Shown here: positions 3,747 through 19,756 of the stretch, in pieces | How positions within the stretch are numbered: the first letter of the stretch is position 1 | How the letters are laid out: each line of letters starts with the position of its first letter | DNA from: Nakamurella multipartita DSM 44233 | GTDB lineage: Bacteria > Actinomycetota > Actinomycetes > Mycobacteriales > Nakamurellaceae | Assembly (NCBI RefSeq): GCF_000024365.1 | Contig: NC_013235.1 | Coordinates: 1 to 64,000, forward strand | Direction: 5' to 3' | Length of the DNA: 64,000 bases | Notes under the pieces: model-generated | The model's input: the letters and a program-made list of their open reading frames with translations, nothing else | Databases searched by the model: none | What the model was told of the DNA's origin: nothing | Made by a program: the position numbers and the translations under genes

Positions 3747-4652
3747 ATGCAGCTCGGTCTCATCGGTCTTGGCAAGATGGGCGCCAACATGGCCGAACGG
3801 CTTCGCCGGGATGGTCATCAGGTGGTCGGATTCGATCGCAGCCCGCAGGCCCCGCGGGACGTCGACTCGCTCGAGGGCCTGGTCGCGGCGCTGACCACGA
3901 CCCCGCGGGTGGTGTGGGTGATGGTGCCCTCCGGTGAGCCGACCCGGGCCACCGTCGCCGCCCTCGGTGAGCTGCTCTCGCCGGGGGACATCATCATCGA
4001 CGGCGGCAACTCCGAGTACGTCGACGACAAGGCCCATGCCGCCGCGCTCGCGCCCAAGGGAATCCGGTACCTGGACTGCGGCGTCTCCGGCGGGGTCTGG
4101 GGCATCACCGAGGGCTACGCCCTGATGGTCGGCGGCGACGCCGACGCGGTGGCCGTCGCGCAGCCCATCTTCGACTCGCTCAAGCCGCCGACCGGGGGCT
4201 TCGTGCATGCCGGACCGGTCGGGTCCGGGCACTTCGTCAAGATGATCCACAACGGGATCGAGTACGGGATCATGCAGGCCTACGGCGAGGGCTACGAGCT
4301 GATGAAGGCGGTCGACTGGGTGACCAACCCGGACGAGGTGATGGCCTCCTGGCAGAACGGCACGGTCATCCGGTCCTGGCTGCTGGACCTGCTGGTCCGG
4401 GCCTTGGACGCGGACCCGGGGCTGAGCCAGATCCGCGGCTACGCCCAGGACTCCGGCGAGGGCCGGTGGACCATCGAGGCGGCGATCGAGAACGCGGTGC
4501 CGATGCCGGTGATCACCGCCGCGCTGTTCGCCCGCTTCGCCTCGCGGCAGACGGACTCGCCGACGATGAAGGTGGTCGCCGCGCTGCGCAACCAGTTCGG
4601 TGGGCATCCGGTCGGCACCGAGGGTTCCGACGCCTCGGTCCCGATCGCCTGA
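3747..4652 (+). CDS. gnd: 6-phosphogluconate dehydrogenase, decarboxylating (short GntZ/YqeC type)
   Basis: This enzyme oxidises and decarboxylates 6-phosphogluconate to ribulose 5-phosphate in the pentose phosphate pathway. The 301-residue length matches the short bacterial class. Visible are the N-terminal dinucleotide motif GLGKMGANMA, the GGNSEYVDD segment, the substrate motif DCGVSGGVWG and the catalytic-lysine segment GSGHFVKMIHNGIEYG. Start ATG 3747 has GGAAGGA at 3734-3740; an upstream in-frame start at 3717 lacks a site. A gnd gene between dnaN and recF is a recurrent actinobacterial arrangement. Its last codons fall in a short tandem duplication described separately. Confidence 0.93.
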   Translation: MQLGLIGLGKMGANMAERLRRDGHQVVGFDRSPQAPRDVDSLEGLVAALTTTPRVVWVMVPSGEPTRATVAALGELLSPGDIIIDGGNSEYVDDKAHAAALAPKGIRYLDCGVSGGVWGITEGYALMVGGDADAVAVAQPIFDSLKPPTGGFVHAGPVGSGHFVKMIHNGIEYGIMQAYGEGYELMKAVDWVTNPDEVMASWQNGTVIRSWLLDLLVRALDADPGLSQIRGYAQDSGEGRWTIEAAIENAVPMPVITAALFARFASRQTDSPTMKVVAALRNQFGGHPVGTEGSDASVPIA

Positions 4653-7309: not shown

Positions 7310-9844
<2,535 letters not shown>

Positions 9845-14766: not shown

Positions 14767-15525
14767 TCAGCGTTCGACTTCGTCCAGCACGGCCCGCACG
14801 GCCTGTGGATCGTGCGCGAACCGGCCCAGGAACATCCCGTCGACCGCGTCGACGATGGTGGGCAACAGACCGGGTCCGGCGCTGCCGCCGTAGATCACCG
14901 CGGCGTCCGGGAACAGCGGGTCGGCCCGCAGATGCTCGCGCAGCGCGCCGCAGACCGCCCGAACGTGCTCCGGCGGGGCCGGGGTCGGCGCGCCGATGGC
15001 CCAGACCGGCTCGTAGGCCACGATCAGCCGGCCGCCGGTGCCGGCCGCCCGCGCCGGGGCCAGGGCCCGTTCCAGCTGATCCAGGCACACCTGGACGGCG
15101 AGCTCGGCCGGCCCCTGGTCGGGCTCGCCGACGCATTCCACCGGCGCCAGCCCGTGCCGCAGCGCCGCATGGGTCTTGCCGGCCACCATCTCGTCGGTCT
15201 CACCGAACAGCGACCGGCGTTCGGCGTGCCCCACCTCGGCCAGCGTGCAGCCGAGCTCGGCCAGCTCGGCCGCGCTGACCTCGCCGGTGAACGGTCCGGA
15301 GTCGGCCCAGTGCAGATCCTGGGCCCCGACCGCGATCCCGGCCGGCCGGGCGATCTCGACCACGGCCGGGATGCTGGGGAACGTCGGGATGACGAAGAAC
15401 TCGACGGCCCCGCTCACGGTCGCGGGATGCTCGGTGCAGATCGCCGCGACGGCCCGGACCCAGTCCAGGGTTTGCCGGTGCCCGAAGTACATCTTCAGGC
15501 TGGAGCCGATGAGCAGCCGCGCCAT
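14767..15525 (-). CDS. Triose-phosphate-isomerase family protein, possibly L-erythrulose-1-phosphate isomerase
   Basis: The 252-residue product is a TIM homologue: lysine segment SSLKMYFGH, electrophile motif GHAERRSLFGETD (His95 equivalent), catalytic glutamate in YEPVWAIG and the phosphate loop GGSAGPG. It departs from housekeeping TIM in the N-terminal motif (SLKMY instead of NWKMN) and near the C-terminus (FLGR instead of VGG). It is downstream of, and co-directional with, a RuBisCO-like gene, 36 bp apart. TIM homologues LerI/TpiA2/EryH isomerise erythrulose phosphates in erythritol and apiose pathways, and OiaX-type RuBisCO-like enzymes make L-erythrulose 1-phosphate; I infer that role here. 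The ordinary glycolytic TIM is the alternative. Confidence 0.8.
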   Translation of the reverse strand: MARLLIGSSLKMYFGHRQTLDWVRAVAAICTEHPATVSGAVEFFVIPTFPSIPAVVEIARPAGIAVGAQDLHWADSGPFTGEVSAAELAELGCTLAEVGHAERRSLFGETDEMVAGKTHAALRHGLAPVECVGEPDQGPAELAVQVCLDQLERALAPARAAGTGGRLIVAYEPVWAIGAPTPAPPEHVRAVCGALREHLRADPLFPDAAVIYGGSAGPGLLPTIVDAVDGMFLGRFAHDPQAVRAVLDEVER

Positions 15526-15561
15526 GAGCGTTTCCCTTCCTCGGATCGGACGGTGACCGGG

Positions 15562-16848
15562 TCAGACGGTGGTGCCGAACCGGTCCAGGGCGCGACCCAG
15601 CGCCGGGTGTTCCTGCCCGGCCTCCACGACCGATCGTCCGGCCATCACCGCGTCGATCGCCTGGCGCATGGCGTCGGCCCCGGCCGCCGCGCCATCCGGA
15701 TGCCCCTGGATCGCCCCGCCGGCACCCAGGATGATGTCCGGGCCCAACTCGTCGACGTAGGTCTGCACGGTCCCCGGGTGCACGCCACCGCCGACCACCG
15801 GGAAGGCCGGCGCGATGTGCGGTCGGCTCAGCTGCAGCTGCTGGACCATCTTCAGGTACTGCAACCGGCGCAGCGGGTAGCCGCCGTAGGGGGTGATGGT
15901 CAGCACCATGTCGCCGCCGGCCAGCCGCGGCAGCATGCCCAGGGCGATCGGCGCGGACAGGCCGGTGCCCGGGCCCTCGAAATACGGGGTCACCCCGGCG
16001 TAGTGGGCCAGGATGGGCACCCCGATCGACTCGGCCAAGCTCTGCAGGGAGCCGAAACCCGCACTCGCGTAGGCGATCATCACGGCCCGGGCGCCGGCAT
16101 CGACGGCCCGCCGGGCGGTGTCGAGCATCCGGTCGGGCCGATCGGTGACGTTGGGGATGTAGACCACGTCGCGGCCGGTGACGTCGCGGGCCCGGTCGGC
16201 GGCGGCCAGGTAGGCCTTGACCCGGTCGACCACCGGCGAGAACGGCGGGTTGCCCAGCAGCTCGTCGTCCTTGATCAGGTCGACCCCGCCCAGGGCGGTG
16301 TCGTAGAAGATCGCCGCGCCCTGCTCGGGGGTCAACCCGGTACAGGGCTTGATCATGTTCAGCACCAGCGGTCGGTCCCGCACCCCGACGAGCTCGCGGA
16401 CGCCCTCGATGCCGAACCGCGGGCCGACCAGCTCCTGGGCCAGCGAGTCCGGGATCTCGATGTCGACCAGCTTGGCCTGGACCGAGGTGGAGATGTCGTT
16501 GCCGATGCAGGTGGCCAGCATCATCGGGATGGACGCGCCGAAATTGACCGTCGGCAGGGCGATCTGGATGAAGTAGCCGCTGGTAGCCTCGGCCTGGGTG
16601 GACAGGTCGACCGGTGGGGCCTCGAGCACCTTGACCACCCGGCCGCGGTGCCGGTCGCGCATCTCGTCGGTCACCCCGGGCACCTCGATCCAGGTGCCGA
16701 TCGTCTGGCCGACCGCGTACCCGGCCGCCTTGCCCAGCACGTCCGCCTCGGCCGGCATGGACAGGTAGTAGGTGGCCAGCAGGTAGTCCGCCCCGCGGAT
16801 GGTCTCGCTGAGGCTGAACATGTCCCCGAACTTGCTGCGCGCAGGCAC
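15562..16848 (-). CDS. RuBisCO-like protein (form IV), possible 3-oxo-isoapionate-4-phosphate decarboxylase
   Basis: The 428-residue product has the RuBisCO N-terminal motif ADYLLATYYL and the active-site segments NMIKPCTGLTPE (Lys175 equivalent) and GGVDLIKDDELLGNPPFSP (carbamylated Lys201, Asp203, Glu204). The loop-6 lysine of true carboxylases is absent: GGDMVLTITPYGGY replaces the GTVVGKLEG region, and the phosphate-binding SGG is GGG. So it keeps metal-enolate chemistry but should not fix CO2. The following TIM-like gene points to the OiaX group of the apiose pathway; other RuBisCO-like activities are possible. GTG 16848 is preferred (GAAGGG 12-18 nt upstream) over ATG 16899, whose codons overlap a palindromic operator. 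Confidence 0.85.
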   Translation of the reverse strand: MPARSKFGDMFSLSETIRGADYLLATYYLSMPAEADVLGKAAGYAVGQTIGTWIEVPGVTDEMRDRHRGRVVKVLEAPPVDLSTQAEATSGYFIQIALPTVNFGASIPMMLATCIGNDISTSVQAKLVDIEIPDSLAQELVGPRFGIEGVRELVGVRDRPLVLNMIKPCTGLTPEQGAAIFYDTALGGVDLIKDDELLGNPPFSPVVDRVKAYLAAADRARDVTGRDVVYIPNVTDRPDRMLDTARRAVDAGARAVMIAYASAGFGSLQSLAESIGVPILAHYAGVTPYFEGPGTGLSAPIALGMLPRLAGGDMVLTITPYGGYPLRRLQYLKMVQQLQLSRPHIAPAFPVVGGGVHPGTVQTYVDELGPDIILGAGGAIQGHPDGAAAGADAMRQAIDAVMAGRSVVEAGQEHPALGRALDRFGTTV

Positions 16849-16888
16849 GACGGTGCAGTTCCCTTCGTTGATTCCCGTTGGCCAGACA

Positions 16889-16908
16889 TGTCTAGCCATG
16901 TCTAGACA
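16889..16908. promoter_or_regulatory. Palindromic operator in RLP/amidotransferase divergent region
   Basis: TGTCTAGACA (16899-16908) is a perfect 10-bp palindrome, preceded by the near copy TGTCTAGCCA (16889-16898), 10 bp or one helical turn apart. It resembles sites of GntR/HutC-type repressors (the DasR site core is TGGTCTAGACCA). It lies between the divergent RuBisCO-like gene and the amidotransferase at 16936, so one regulator could control both. No GntR gene is in this window. Confidence 0.55.
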
Positions 16909-16935: not shown

Positions 16936-17670
16936 GTGAAGCCCTTCCTGCTCCTGGCCATCCGCGCCGAGCACGTCGCCGCCGACGACGAGTATGCGGC
17001 GATGCTGCGCCGGACCGGCCTGCCCGAGCACGAGCTGGTCCGGATCCGGCTGGAACGTCAGCCGTTGGGCGGGATCGACCTGGACGACTGGTCCGGCGTG
17101 ATTCTGGGCGGCGGGCCCTACCAGGCCAGCGATCCGCCGGAGACGAAATCGGCCACCCAGCACCGGGTGGAGGCCGAGCTCAGTGCCCTGCTGGACGAGG
17201 TCGTCGCGCGCGACTTCCCTTTCCTGGGTTGCTGTTACGGGATCGGCACGCTGGGCCGGCACCAGGGGGCCGTGGTCGACCGGACCTTCGGCGAACCCAT
17301 CGGCGGGATCCGGGTGCGCGTCAACGACGCGGGCCGCAGCGATCCGCTGCTGGCCGGCGCCGGTCCCGAATTCGGCGCCTACGTCGGGCACAAGGAGGCC
17401 ATCCGCGAGTTGCCAACGCACGCGGTGCCGCTCGCGTCCTCGGCTGATTGCCCGGTGCAGGCGTTCCGGGTCGGCACCCGCGTCTACGCCACCCAGTTCC
17501 ACCCCGAGCTGGACCTGGACGGACTGGCCACCCGGATCGAGGCGTATCGCTATGCCGGCTACTTCCCGCCCGAGGAGGCGGACGCGGTGCTGGCCGCCGC
17601 TCGGGCCAGCGGCATCACCCAGACCCCCAACCTGCTGGGCCGATTCGTCGAACTCTTCGCCCGGGACTGA
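16936..17670 (+). CDS. Class I glutamine amidotransferase domain protein
   Basis: The 244-residue product has the class I glutaminase fold: oxyanion motif VILGGGPYQASDP, nucleophile Cys in FLGCCYGIGTLG, and the catalytic His-Glu in ATQFHPELDLDG. It is a stand-alone GuaA-like glutaminase domain without synthetase part, so the amine acceptor or gamma-glutamyl substrate is unknown; such proteins often hydrolyse gamma-glutamyl compounds. The GTG start at 16936 leaves a short divergent promoter region shared with the RuBisCO-like gene. The next ORF starts 3 bp after its stop. Confidence 0.85.
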   Translation: MKPFLLLAIRAEHVAADDEYAAMLRRTGLPEHELVRIRLERQPLGGIDLDDWSGVILGGGPYQASDPPETKSATQHRVEAELSALLDEVVARDFPFLGCCYGIGTLGRHQGAVVDRTFGEPIGGIRVRVNDAGRSDPLLAGAGPEFGAYVGHKEAIRELPTHAVPLASSADCPVQAFRVGTRVYATQFHPELDLDGLATRIEAYRYAGYFPPEEADAVLAAARASGITQTPNLLGRFVELFARD

Positions 17671-17673
17671 CCG

Positions 17674-18018
17674 ATGGACCTGGCCGAACGGGTGGACCGG
17701 GCGGTGCGCCGGATGCCGCCGGGCGTGCGCGCGCTGACCGCCAGCCAGGGCGATCGCACCGTTGCCCACCACTGGTCGCCGCCGGAACCGACCGATCTGC
17801 GTTCGCTGACCAATGGGTATGGAATCTGGAGTTGCGGGGACGGACGGTACTTCGGTGACGGAACCGGCGGCCAGTACCTGGTCGTCGATCCGGAGCGGGA
17901 GCTCGCGGTCACCGTGCTGTCCGGCGATTCGCACATGGACGCCATCCAGGACGCTCTCGCCCCGCTGGTGCGGCGGGCGGCGCCGGCCGTCTCCCGCCCG
18001 CCCGGCGACGGTGGTTGA
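17674..18018 (+). pseudogene. Serine-hydrolase (beta-lactamase family) remnant with internal deletion
   Basis: This 114-residue ORF joins the two ends of a class C beta-lactamase/esterase-like serine hydrolase. Residues about 1-45 (MPPGVRALTASQGDRTVAHHW...DLRSLT) look like the segment leading to the SxxK nucleophile, and from about 47 (GYGIWSCGDGRYFGDGTGGQYLVVDPE) the sequence is the usual C-terminal strand region. The Lys of SxxK and the whole catalytic middle, roughly 200 residues in the family, are missing, with the join at SLT-N. The reading frame is intact, so a short protein may still be made, but not a hydrolase. It follows the amidotransferase by 3 bp. Confidence 0.6.
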
Positions 18019-18067: not shown

Positions 18068-19756
18068 ATGTCTGACCCCATGAGCACCACCGATCCCAGC
18101 CGCCTGAACCGGGCTCAACGCCGGCGCAGCCTGGACCGGGCCACCGGCGACCAGTACGACGTGCTGGTCATCGGGGCGGGGGTGACCGGTGCCGGGTGCG
18201 CCCTGGACGCCGCGACCCGCGGCCTGCGGGTGGTGCTGGTCGAGGCCGGGGACATCGCCATCGGCACCTCGTCGCGGTCCGGCAAGATCTTCCACGGCGG
18301 GCTGCGCTATCTCGAGCAGTACAACTTCGGCCTGGTCGCGCACGCCATCGTCGAGCGGGACCTGCAGGTCAAGACCCTGAGCCCGCACCTGACCCGGCCC
18401 GAGCCGTTCCTGTATCCGCTGAGCAAGCACTGGGAGCGCCCGTACGCCGGGGCCGGGATCCTGCTGTACGACATCTTCGGCCTGCGCGGCCGCGGCGTGC
18501 CGCGGCACCGGCACCTGACCCGCGGCGGGGTGATCCGGCACGCCCCGTCGATGGATCCGGACGTGATCACCGGCGGCATCCAGTACTACGACGTGCGGAT
18601 GGACGACGCCCGGCACACCCTGACCGTCGTGCGCACCGCGGCCGCCTTCGGCGCCGAGGTCATCACCGACGCACCGGTCGTCGAGCTGCTCACCGCCGGC
18701 GACCAGGTCGTCGGCGCGGTGATCACCGACGGGCCGGGCGGGGCCCGGCACGAGATCCGGGCGAAGGTCGTCGTCAACGCCGCCGGCTCGTGGGCCGCCG
18801 ACCTGCAACAGCTGGCCGGGCGGCACACGTTCGACGTGCAGCCGTCCAAGGGCGTGCACCTGCTGCTGCGGGGCGACGCCATCGACGCCGCCACCGGGAT
18901 CCTGGCCCGGGCCAGCGATTCGGTGATCATCGCCCGCCGCTGGTGGGACTACTGGCTGGTCGGCACCACCGACACGCCCTGGGACGGTGATCGGGGCTCG
19001 CCCCGTCCCGAGGTCGACGACGTCGAGTACCTGCTGCGCGAGCTCAACCACTTCCTGCGCCGCAAGGTGCAGCCGGACGATGTGCTCGGGGTCTACGCCG
19101 GGGTCCGGCCGCTGCTCCGGCCGGTGGCGACGGGCGCCGACACCGACACGACGTCGGCGCTGTCCCGGGACCACTCGGTGATGCCCGGCCCGGACGGCCT
19201 GATCACCATCGTCGGCGGCAAGTACACGACCTACCGGTTGATGGCCCAGGACACCATCGACGCGGCGGTGGCCACCGGCCGGCTCGGTGACGTCCCGGCC
19301 GGCATCACCACGACGACCCCGCTGCTCGGCGCGGCCGGCTGGGCCGGGTTGCGCAACCGGGTCGGCGCCCTGGCCGCCGAGCACGGCCTGAGCGCCGCGC
19401 AGATCGAGCGGCTGCTGAGCCGGTACGGCAATCAGATCCACGACGTGCTGGCCGCGGGCGCCGACGACCCCGCGCTGATCGTCCCGCGGCCGGACTGGGC
19501 CGGGTACCTGCCGGCCGAGCTGCGGTATGCGGTGACCGCCGAGGGCGCGCTGACCCTGACCGACGTGATGATGCGGCGGACGCACCTGGCCATCGAACTG
19601 CCCGACGGCGGCCACGACGCCGCACCGGCGGTGGCCGAACTGCTGCGGCCGGTGGCCGGCTGGGACGGGCCCGCGGCGGACCGCCAGGTGGCCGCCTACC
19701 GGGCGGCGGTCGCGGCCGACCGAGAGGCGCTGCACACCGTGCAGGCCGGCCGCTGA
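18068..19756 (+). CDS. glpD: FAD-dependent glycerol-3-phosphate dehydrogenase (GlpD family)
   Basis: GlpD oxidises glycerol 3-phosphate to dihydroxyacetone phosphate at the membrane, passing electrons to quinone. The 562-residue product has the FAD-binding motif VLVIGAGVTGAGCALDAATRG (about 32-52), the substrate segment SSRSGKIFHGGLRYLE, and VGGKYTTYRLMAQDTID near the end of the FAD domain, plus the C-terminal helical domain. Length and order are normal. The start ATG 18068 follows CGAGGACGAG. Because a TIM-like and RuBisCO-like pair lies upstream, an erythritol-phosphate dehydrogenase (EryB, a GlpD homologue) is a minor alternative. Confidence 0.9.
   Translation: MSDPMSTTDPSRLNRAQRRRSLDRATGDQYDVLVIGAGVTGAGCALDAATRGLRVVLVEAGDIAIGTSSRSGKIFHGGLRYLEQYNFGLVAHAIVERDLQVKTLSPHLTRPEPFLYPLSKHWERPYAGAGILLYDIFGLRGRGVPRHRHLTRGGVIRHAPSMDPDVITGGIQYYDVRMDDARHTLTVVRTAAAFGAEVITDAPVVELLTAGDQVVGAVITDGPGGARHEIRAKVVVNAAGSWAADLQQLAGRHTFDVQPSKGVHLLLRGDAIDAATGILARASDSVIIARRWWDYWLVGTTDTPWDGDRGSPRPEVDDVEYLLRELNHFLRRKVQPDDVLGVYAGVRPLLRPVATGADTDTTSALSRDHSVMPGPDGLITIVGGKYTTYRLMAQDTIDAAVATGRLGDVPAGITTTTPLLGAAGWAGLRNRVGALAAEHGLSAAQIERLLSRYGNQIHDVLAAGADDPALIVPRPDWAGYLPAELRYAVTAEGALTLTDVMMRRTHLAIELPDGGHDAAPAVAELLRPVAGWDGPAADRQVAAYRAAVAADREALHTVQAGR

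Follow-up and report, generated by a model that had tools for sequence, protein, structure and literature searches.

The locus in Nakamurella multipartita

Nakamurella multipartita is a soil actinobacterium, and the genome of strain DSM 44233 consists of one contig of 6,060,298 bases (6.06 Mb). The first 64,000 nucleotides of this contig (the window) contain the following features around a gene for a RuBisCO-like protein (RLP).

15562–16899, minus strand: RLP, 445 aa counted from the first ATG; Pfam RuBisCO_large, E 1.6e-44
14767–15525, minus strand: non-glycolytic TIM homologue, 252 aa; Pfam TIM, E 1.5e-52
16889–16908, no strand: tandem operator-like repeat with a 10-bp period, TGTCTAGCCATGTCTAGACA, in the RLP promoter
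16936–17670, plus strand: class I glutamine amidotransferase of the PRK07567 family, divergent from the RLP
17674–18018, plus strand: short ORF resembling the C-terminus of a serine hydrolase/beta-lactamase, with a match below the Pfam cut-off
18068–19756, plus strand: FAD dehydrogenase of GlpD type, orthologous to the one in the RLP operon of a sister genome

The TIM gene lies 36 bp downstream of the RLP gene on the same strand, which bears out the pairing described in a first-pass annotation of the sequence, and the GlpD-type dehydrogenase which that annotation placed nearby is present. The short ORF between the amidotransferase and GlpD is probably a gene remnant. We consider that the RLP probably starts at ATG 16821, giving a protein of 419 aa, since the first ATG (16899) overlaps the operator-like palindrome and homologues, including the one in the sister Nakamurella genome, begin near M27. 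An open frame of 697 codons (14812–16905, plus strand) runs antisense over both RLP and TIM; it is most likely an artefact, given that the DNA is 71% GC and the coding pattern is on the opposite strand. Scanning the RLP region for sigma-70 promoters and terminators gave no match.

In a search of the whole genome the RLP is the sole RuBisCO homologue, and the window TIM is one of three, the others being at 3,074,121 and 3,645,075. The first-pass annotation stated that its reading would fall if the window TIM were the only glycolytic TIM of the cell; this is ruled out by the TIM at 3,074,121, a separate, canonical tpiA within a gap-pgk-tpiA-secG run.

Active site and phylogenetic position of the RuBisCO-like protein

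Residue positions were assigned by sequence alignment and from known Rubisco roles, with loop 6 aligned without gaps. Rubisco K175, K201, D203 and E204 are represented by K184, K210, D212 and E213, and the loop-6 lysine K334 by G340, as had been read from the sequence at first pass. Also retained are Rubisco T65/W66, N123, H294, G380/G381 and G403/G404, so numbered in Rubisco, with T69/W70, G371/G372 and G394/G395 forming the P1 site of the RLP. The substitutions at the RuBP-carboxylation residues K334, R295 (Y300), H327 (L333), S379 (G370) and K177 (C186) exclude a true RuBisCO of forms I–III. This pattern of kept and replaced residues indicates that the protein has preserved its P1 phosphate site and metal site but has neither the P2 phosphate site nor the lysines that handle CO2. 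By its residues, the protein is a RuBisCO-like protein of the broad form IV, belonging to the RuBisCO family and having the carbamylation lysine and metal ligands without the carboxylase residues.

A scan of a genome collection produced 546 confirmed relatives, neighbouring RLP groups included, and the best 80 of the 546 loci were kept. Trees were made with 143 rows and, more carefully, with 46; the Rhodospirillum rubrum RLP (DeepYkrW) was not among the rows. In both trees the RLP belongs to a clade from Actinobacteria and Bacillota, of which 79 members were analysed, and this clade is separate from MtnW and from OiaX. K334 is replaced in every member (79/79; G in 70, T in 7, R in 1 and S in 1), whereas it is retained throughout OiaX and its relatives (15/15) and throughout a neighbouring clade of FGGY-linked and syntrophomonad RLPs (25/25).

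The first-pass annotation suggested an OiaX-type enzyme, that is, a 3-oxo-isoapionate-4-phosphate decarboxylase of form IV. The two proteins share the RuBisCO fold, Lys175 and the KDDE core, but the identification does not hold. Against the NCBIfam OiaX equivalog the RLP scores 182.9 bits, where the cut-off is 700; OiaX nests among RLPs linked to SBD kinases, and a joint clade of OiaX with the RLP group is rejected (AU test, p-AU 0.006). R295 and K334 are together present in all 15 OiaX and SBD-linked RLPs and lost in all 79 members of the clade, and the column of W70 is Phe in OiaX. OiaX also adjoins aldo-keto reductases and, in Rhizobium, an SBD kinase of the PF07005 type; this SBD/four-carbon-acid kinase family is absent from a whole-genome search of N. 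multipartita.

MtnW (YkrW), the 2,3-diketo-5-methylthiopentyl-1-phosphate enolase of methionine salvage, resembles the RLP in several respects. Among solved structures the best match is to MtnW (2oek, 270 bits), it too has lost K334 and R295, and its active site binds a single phosphate; moreover, the branching order of MtnW, the RLP clade and the neighbouring clade is not settled by the tree, the link between the RLP clade and MtnW reaching only 76/70. That the RLP is MtnW or a related methylthio-sugar enzyme is nevertheless very improbable. MtnW forms a clade of its own (100/100 in the 46-row tree) with the RLP falling outside it, a placement that the first-pass annotation had asked to be checked, and the RLP scores 312.1 and 279.5 bits against the NCBIfam MtnW models, below the cut-offs of 409 and 513.6. 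At the column of Rubisco N123 (N134 in the RLP) the clade has Asn in 79/79 and MtnW has Lys in 4/4 rows. MtnW reference loci carry mtnX/mtnB, and no mtn genes were found near the window RLP or in the sister operon. The tree, N134 and the gene context thus reject the identification with the methionine-salvage enolase.

The clade is therefore neither OiaX nor MtnW; it is widespread and apparently uncharacterised. To our knowledge, reactions are known for few RLP branches. In the neighbouring clade, the RLPs of deep Actinomycetota (L068–L077, L089–L092) keep K334 and adjoin an FGGY kinase, with neither TIM nor RpiB, and are a second RLP group lacking an assigned reaction.

Gene neighbourhoods, the sister operon and a candidate operator

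Neighbours were counted with profiles built from the neighbouring genes, those for TIM and RpiB from loci of the clade; many contigs are short, so the TIM and RpiB counts are lower bounds, and the TIM profile still detects canonical TIM. On this basis TIM occurs at 45 of the 79 clade loci, RpiB at 31 and both at 27, compared with none at the 25 neighbouring-clade loci or at 11 loci on plasmids that are of OiaX, SBD-kinase-linked or MtnW type. The recurrence of these two isomerases beside the RLP supports the C4 sugar-phosphate fate proposed at first pass. Class II aldolase is found at 31/79 loci, including some that have neither TIM nor RpiB. Five settings can be described:

Setting A, Actinobacteria: FGGY kinases, HAD, TIM and GlpD; often FBA, 2-oxo-acid dehydrogenase E1 and a Gro1PDH-like gene
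Setting B, Bacillota: galactitol-type PTS, RpiB and TIM; sometimes GlpA/GlpB
Setting C: amidohydrolase, PEP-hydrolase-like protein (PF09370) and UPF0261 with TIM and RpiB
Setting D: ribose-type ABC transporter, MBL lactonase, UPF0261, class II aldolase and GntR; RpiB/TIM present or not
Setting E, neighbouring-clade loci: PF09370 and UPF0261 only

The module is at its most compact in Lachnospiraceae and Erysipelotrichaceae (L113, L119, L114, L115), where a galactitol-type PTS, RpiB, TIM and RLP occur without dehydrogenase, sugar kinase or lactonase. At L113 and L119 the plausible members are PTS genes, aldolase, a regulator, RpiB, TIM and RLP and nothing else, which leaves no enzyme there to build a branched keto acid; at L106, L107 and L111, the PTS, GlpA/GlpB, RpiB, TIM and RLP occur together. 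UPF0261 (Tm-1-like, ATP-binding) and PF09370 recur beside Bacillota RLPs (L102, L116–L120, L128, L161–L172) and also in the K334-keeping neighbouring clade. A sugar-acid route might use UPF0261 as its kinase; the N. multipartita genome has no UPF0261 gene.

A second genome of the same genus (G066) has a co-directional run of RLP, RpiB, TIM, FGGY kinase and GlpD, in which the RLP is 85% and the TIM 74% identical to those of the window. The window GlpD pairs with the GlpD of this operon (99/97), apart from the other GlpDs of the genus, and the same tree rejects it as an ordinary housekeeping GlpD of glycerol catabolism. This orthology extends the window gene set to RLP, TIM and GlpD, beyond the interval first annotated. 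The compact form described there is incomplete, as GlpD is also part of the system and the sister operon has five genes, kinase and RpiB included; likewise, the remark that there is no kinase is true of the window but not of the sister operon with its FGGY kinase. N. multipartita contains no orthologue of this kinase anywhere in its genome (best 36%), and its RpiB closest to that of the operon (73%) is at 973,298, unlinked to the RLP. The nearest relatives of the operon RpiB, here and in the sister genome (G066:C1:1914500-1917500, L190; G000:C1:973298), have a DeoR regulator adjacent, in the sister genome with a DhaK-type kinase too, and this site is a possible second tetrulose-phosphate locus.

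The separation of kinase and RpiB, and the truncated ORF between RLP and GlpD, might indicate that the N. multipartita genes are a relic of a larger operon whose pathway no longer works. We regard this as improbable, as all three reading frames are intact, the catalytic residues and the operator-like promoter are kept, and the RLP is so similar to its sister.

The gene content of the sister operon recalls the erythritol cluster of Yarrowia and the Brucella genes EryA, EryB, EryC, EryH and EryI, whose roles have been described (PMC10733421, PMC5992420); in Yarrowia, erythritol breakdown ends with two isomerase steps, by a TIM-like and an RpiB-like enzyme (PMC9835291, PMC5992420). In a published E. 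coli delta-tktAB selection strain, where FucA or RhaD supplies D-erythrulose 1-phosphate, growth depends on EryC together with LerI and DerI (PMC10733421). FGGY kinase, GlpD-like dehydrogenase, TIM and RpiB are all present in the sister operon (the window has just GlpD and TIM), corresponding to EryA, EryB, EryH and EryI types. However, a check of its neighbourhood revealed no gene of EryC type, and the RLP stands in its place.

The window TIM retains catalytic K11 and the motifs GHAERR and AYEPVWAIG, but the phosphate loop GGASL is replaced by GRFAH; it is non-glycolytic. LerI/EryH, the L-erythrulose-1-phosphate isomerase of PDB entry 11ef, is of the TIM family and has the motifs GAQxxxW and GR(S/F)A(W/H), the latter again replacing GGASL; the window TIM matches both, with GAQDLHW and GRFAH, and is a probable L-erythrulose-1-phosphate isomerase. 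In the tree, the window and sister TIMs nonetheless join 3s6d, a putative TIM from a fungus (96/92), and not 11ef, whereas RLP-linked TIMs of Firmicutes group with 11ef, which is the nearest PDB match of one of them; setting A TIMs are another clade. The test rejects a single clade or origin that would unite window-type TIMs with the RLP-linked TIMs of Firmicutes (p 1.2e-5). Since RLP-linked TIMs come from several lineages, different non-glycolytic TIMs have apparently been recruited by the RLP more than once.

The repeat in the RLP promoter includes TGTCTAGACA, which has no other site in the genome. Half-sites arranged in tandem at a 10-bp period number 30 in 384 kb of setting A loci and 1 in 319 kb of control loci, with 1.4 expected, an enrichment that is partly circular since the pattern was drawn from the same setting A loci and that gains support from the control loci and from promoter placement. 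These half-sites include the RLP promoter of the sister genome and a cluster at 3.64 Mb in N. multipartita. Tandem TGTNTR repeats lie at 16889–16908 in the window, at 9459–9480 in L057, and at 4158, 7996, 8844, 11608 and 17580 in L059, and are probably an operator of GntR type common to the RLP and a polyol-type cluster. The RLP may thus share a regulator with polyol-type genes, perhaps the GntR of the 3.64 Mb cluster. That cluster (G000:C1:3637000-3673000; L059, L191) encodes FGGY kinases, GlpD, the third TIM, a class II aldolase, a fused 2-oxo-acid dehydrogenase E1, E2, a Gro1PDH-like protein and the GntR. It is of setting A type without an RLP; other actinobacteria house the RLP in such clusters but Nakamurella does not.

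Candidate reactions of the RuBisCO-like protein

We tentatively favour an enolising ketose-1-phosphate isomerase, most likely a tetrulose-1-phosphate 3-epimerase that would feed TIM and RpiB to give erythrose 4-phosphate; substrates, reaction direction and regulation are all predictions here. The RLP would bind one phosphate, at the Rubisco P1 site that it has kept, the P2 site being lost, while the C2 carbonyl and C3 hydroxyl of the substrate would be chelated on an Mg2+ ion whose protein ligands are carbamylated K210, D212 and E213. Abstraction of the C3 proton and reprotonation of the resulting 2,3-enediolate would then most likely convert D-erythrulose 1-phosphate to L-erythrulose 1-phosphate, as Brucella EryC does. 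The adjacent TIM homologue would convert this product to D-erythrulose 4-phosphate, and an RpiB homologue would convert that to D-erythrose 4-phosphate. The preceding steps would be phosphorylation of a tetritol or ketotetrose by an FGGY kinase or PTS and, where needed, oxidation by the GlpD-type enzyme. In N. multipartita, the genes for RLP, TIM and GlpD lie together, and kinase and RpiB would have to come from elsewhere.

This epimerase reading is favoured by the recurrence of TIM and RpiB at clade loci, by the recruitment of TIMs from several lineages, by the match of a Firmicute RLP-linked TIM to 11ef, by the single phosphate site, by the loss of K334 as in the non-decarboxylating MtnW, by the PTS loci without an acid-making enzyme and by the EryC-shaped gap in the sister operon. 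Set against it are some setting C and D loci with lactonase-like genes and without polyol kinase or dehydrogenase, which fit a sugar acid better, and, in N. multipartita, the unlinked kinase and RpiB and the grouping of the window TIM with 3s6d and not 11ef.

The main rival is that the RLP, though not OiaX, acts as an OiaX-like decarboxylase on the phosphate of a branched 3-oxo acid, either 3-oxo-isoapionate 4-phosphate or a compound close to it; we judge this to be a real but minor possibility. The product, L-erythrulose 1-phosphate, and the two isomerases that follow, LerI (TIM) and DerI (RpiB), would be identical, one enediolate would serve both decarboxylation and C3 epimerisation, and setting D loci resemble Rhizobium OiaX loci in having a ribose-type ABC transporter and a lactonase of the same MBL family. 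In the sister operon, a 2-C-hydroxymethyl-tetronate would be the compound from which FGGY kinase and GlpD form the 3-oxo-4-phosphate. The uniform loss of K334 and R295 argues against decarboxylation, as do the score, tree and SBD kinase results that separate the RLP from OiaX, and PTS-type loci include no acid-forming enzyme.

Rather unlikely, in our estimation, is action on another ketose-1-phosphate, of C5 or longer, for instance 3-epimerisation or 1,3-isomerisation upstream of a class II aldolase, with TIM and RpiB serving a side or later C4 step. The aldolase at many clade loci allows for a substrate of other length, and the R. rubrum RLP, a 5-methylthioribulose-1-phosphate isomerase, sets a precedent for isomerisation of a 5-carbon ketose-1-phosphate (PMC6302742). 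The aldolase is, however, absent from the window neighbourhood and from the sister operon, and the joint occurrence of TIM and RpiB points to C4.

The more specific proposal, that this RuBisCO homologue is the missing tetrulose-1-phosphate 3-epimerase, in the EryC role, of a tetritol or ketotetrose pathway common to Actinobacteria and anaerobic Bacillota, is put forward as a possibility held with less assurance than the epimerase reading itself. Within the literature collection searched, no paper was found that joins an RLP to erythritol catabolism. The altered loop 6 and the recurrent TIM/RpiB neighbourhood narrow the substrates worth testing to a few C4 sugar phosphates. If the proposal is true, it would add a new reaction to the RuBisCO family and a new RLP-TIM-RpiB route to erythrose 4-phosphate in these bacteria; the clade would show another use of Rubisco enediolate chemistry and could supply a step missing from tetritol catabolism.
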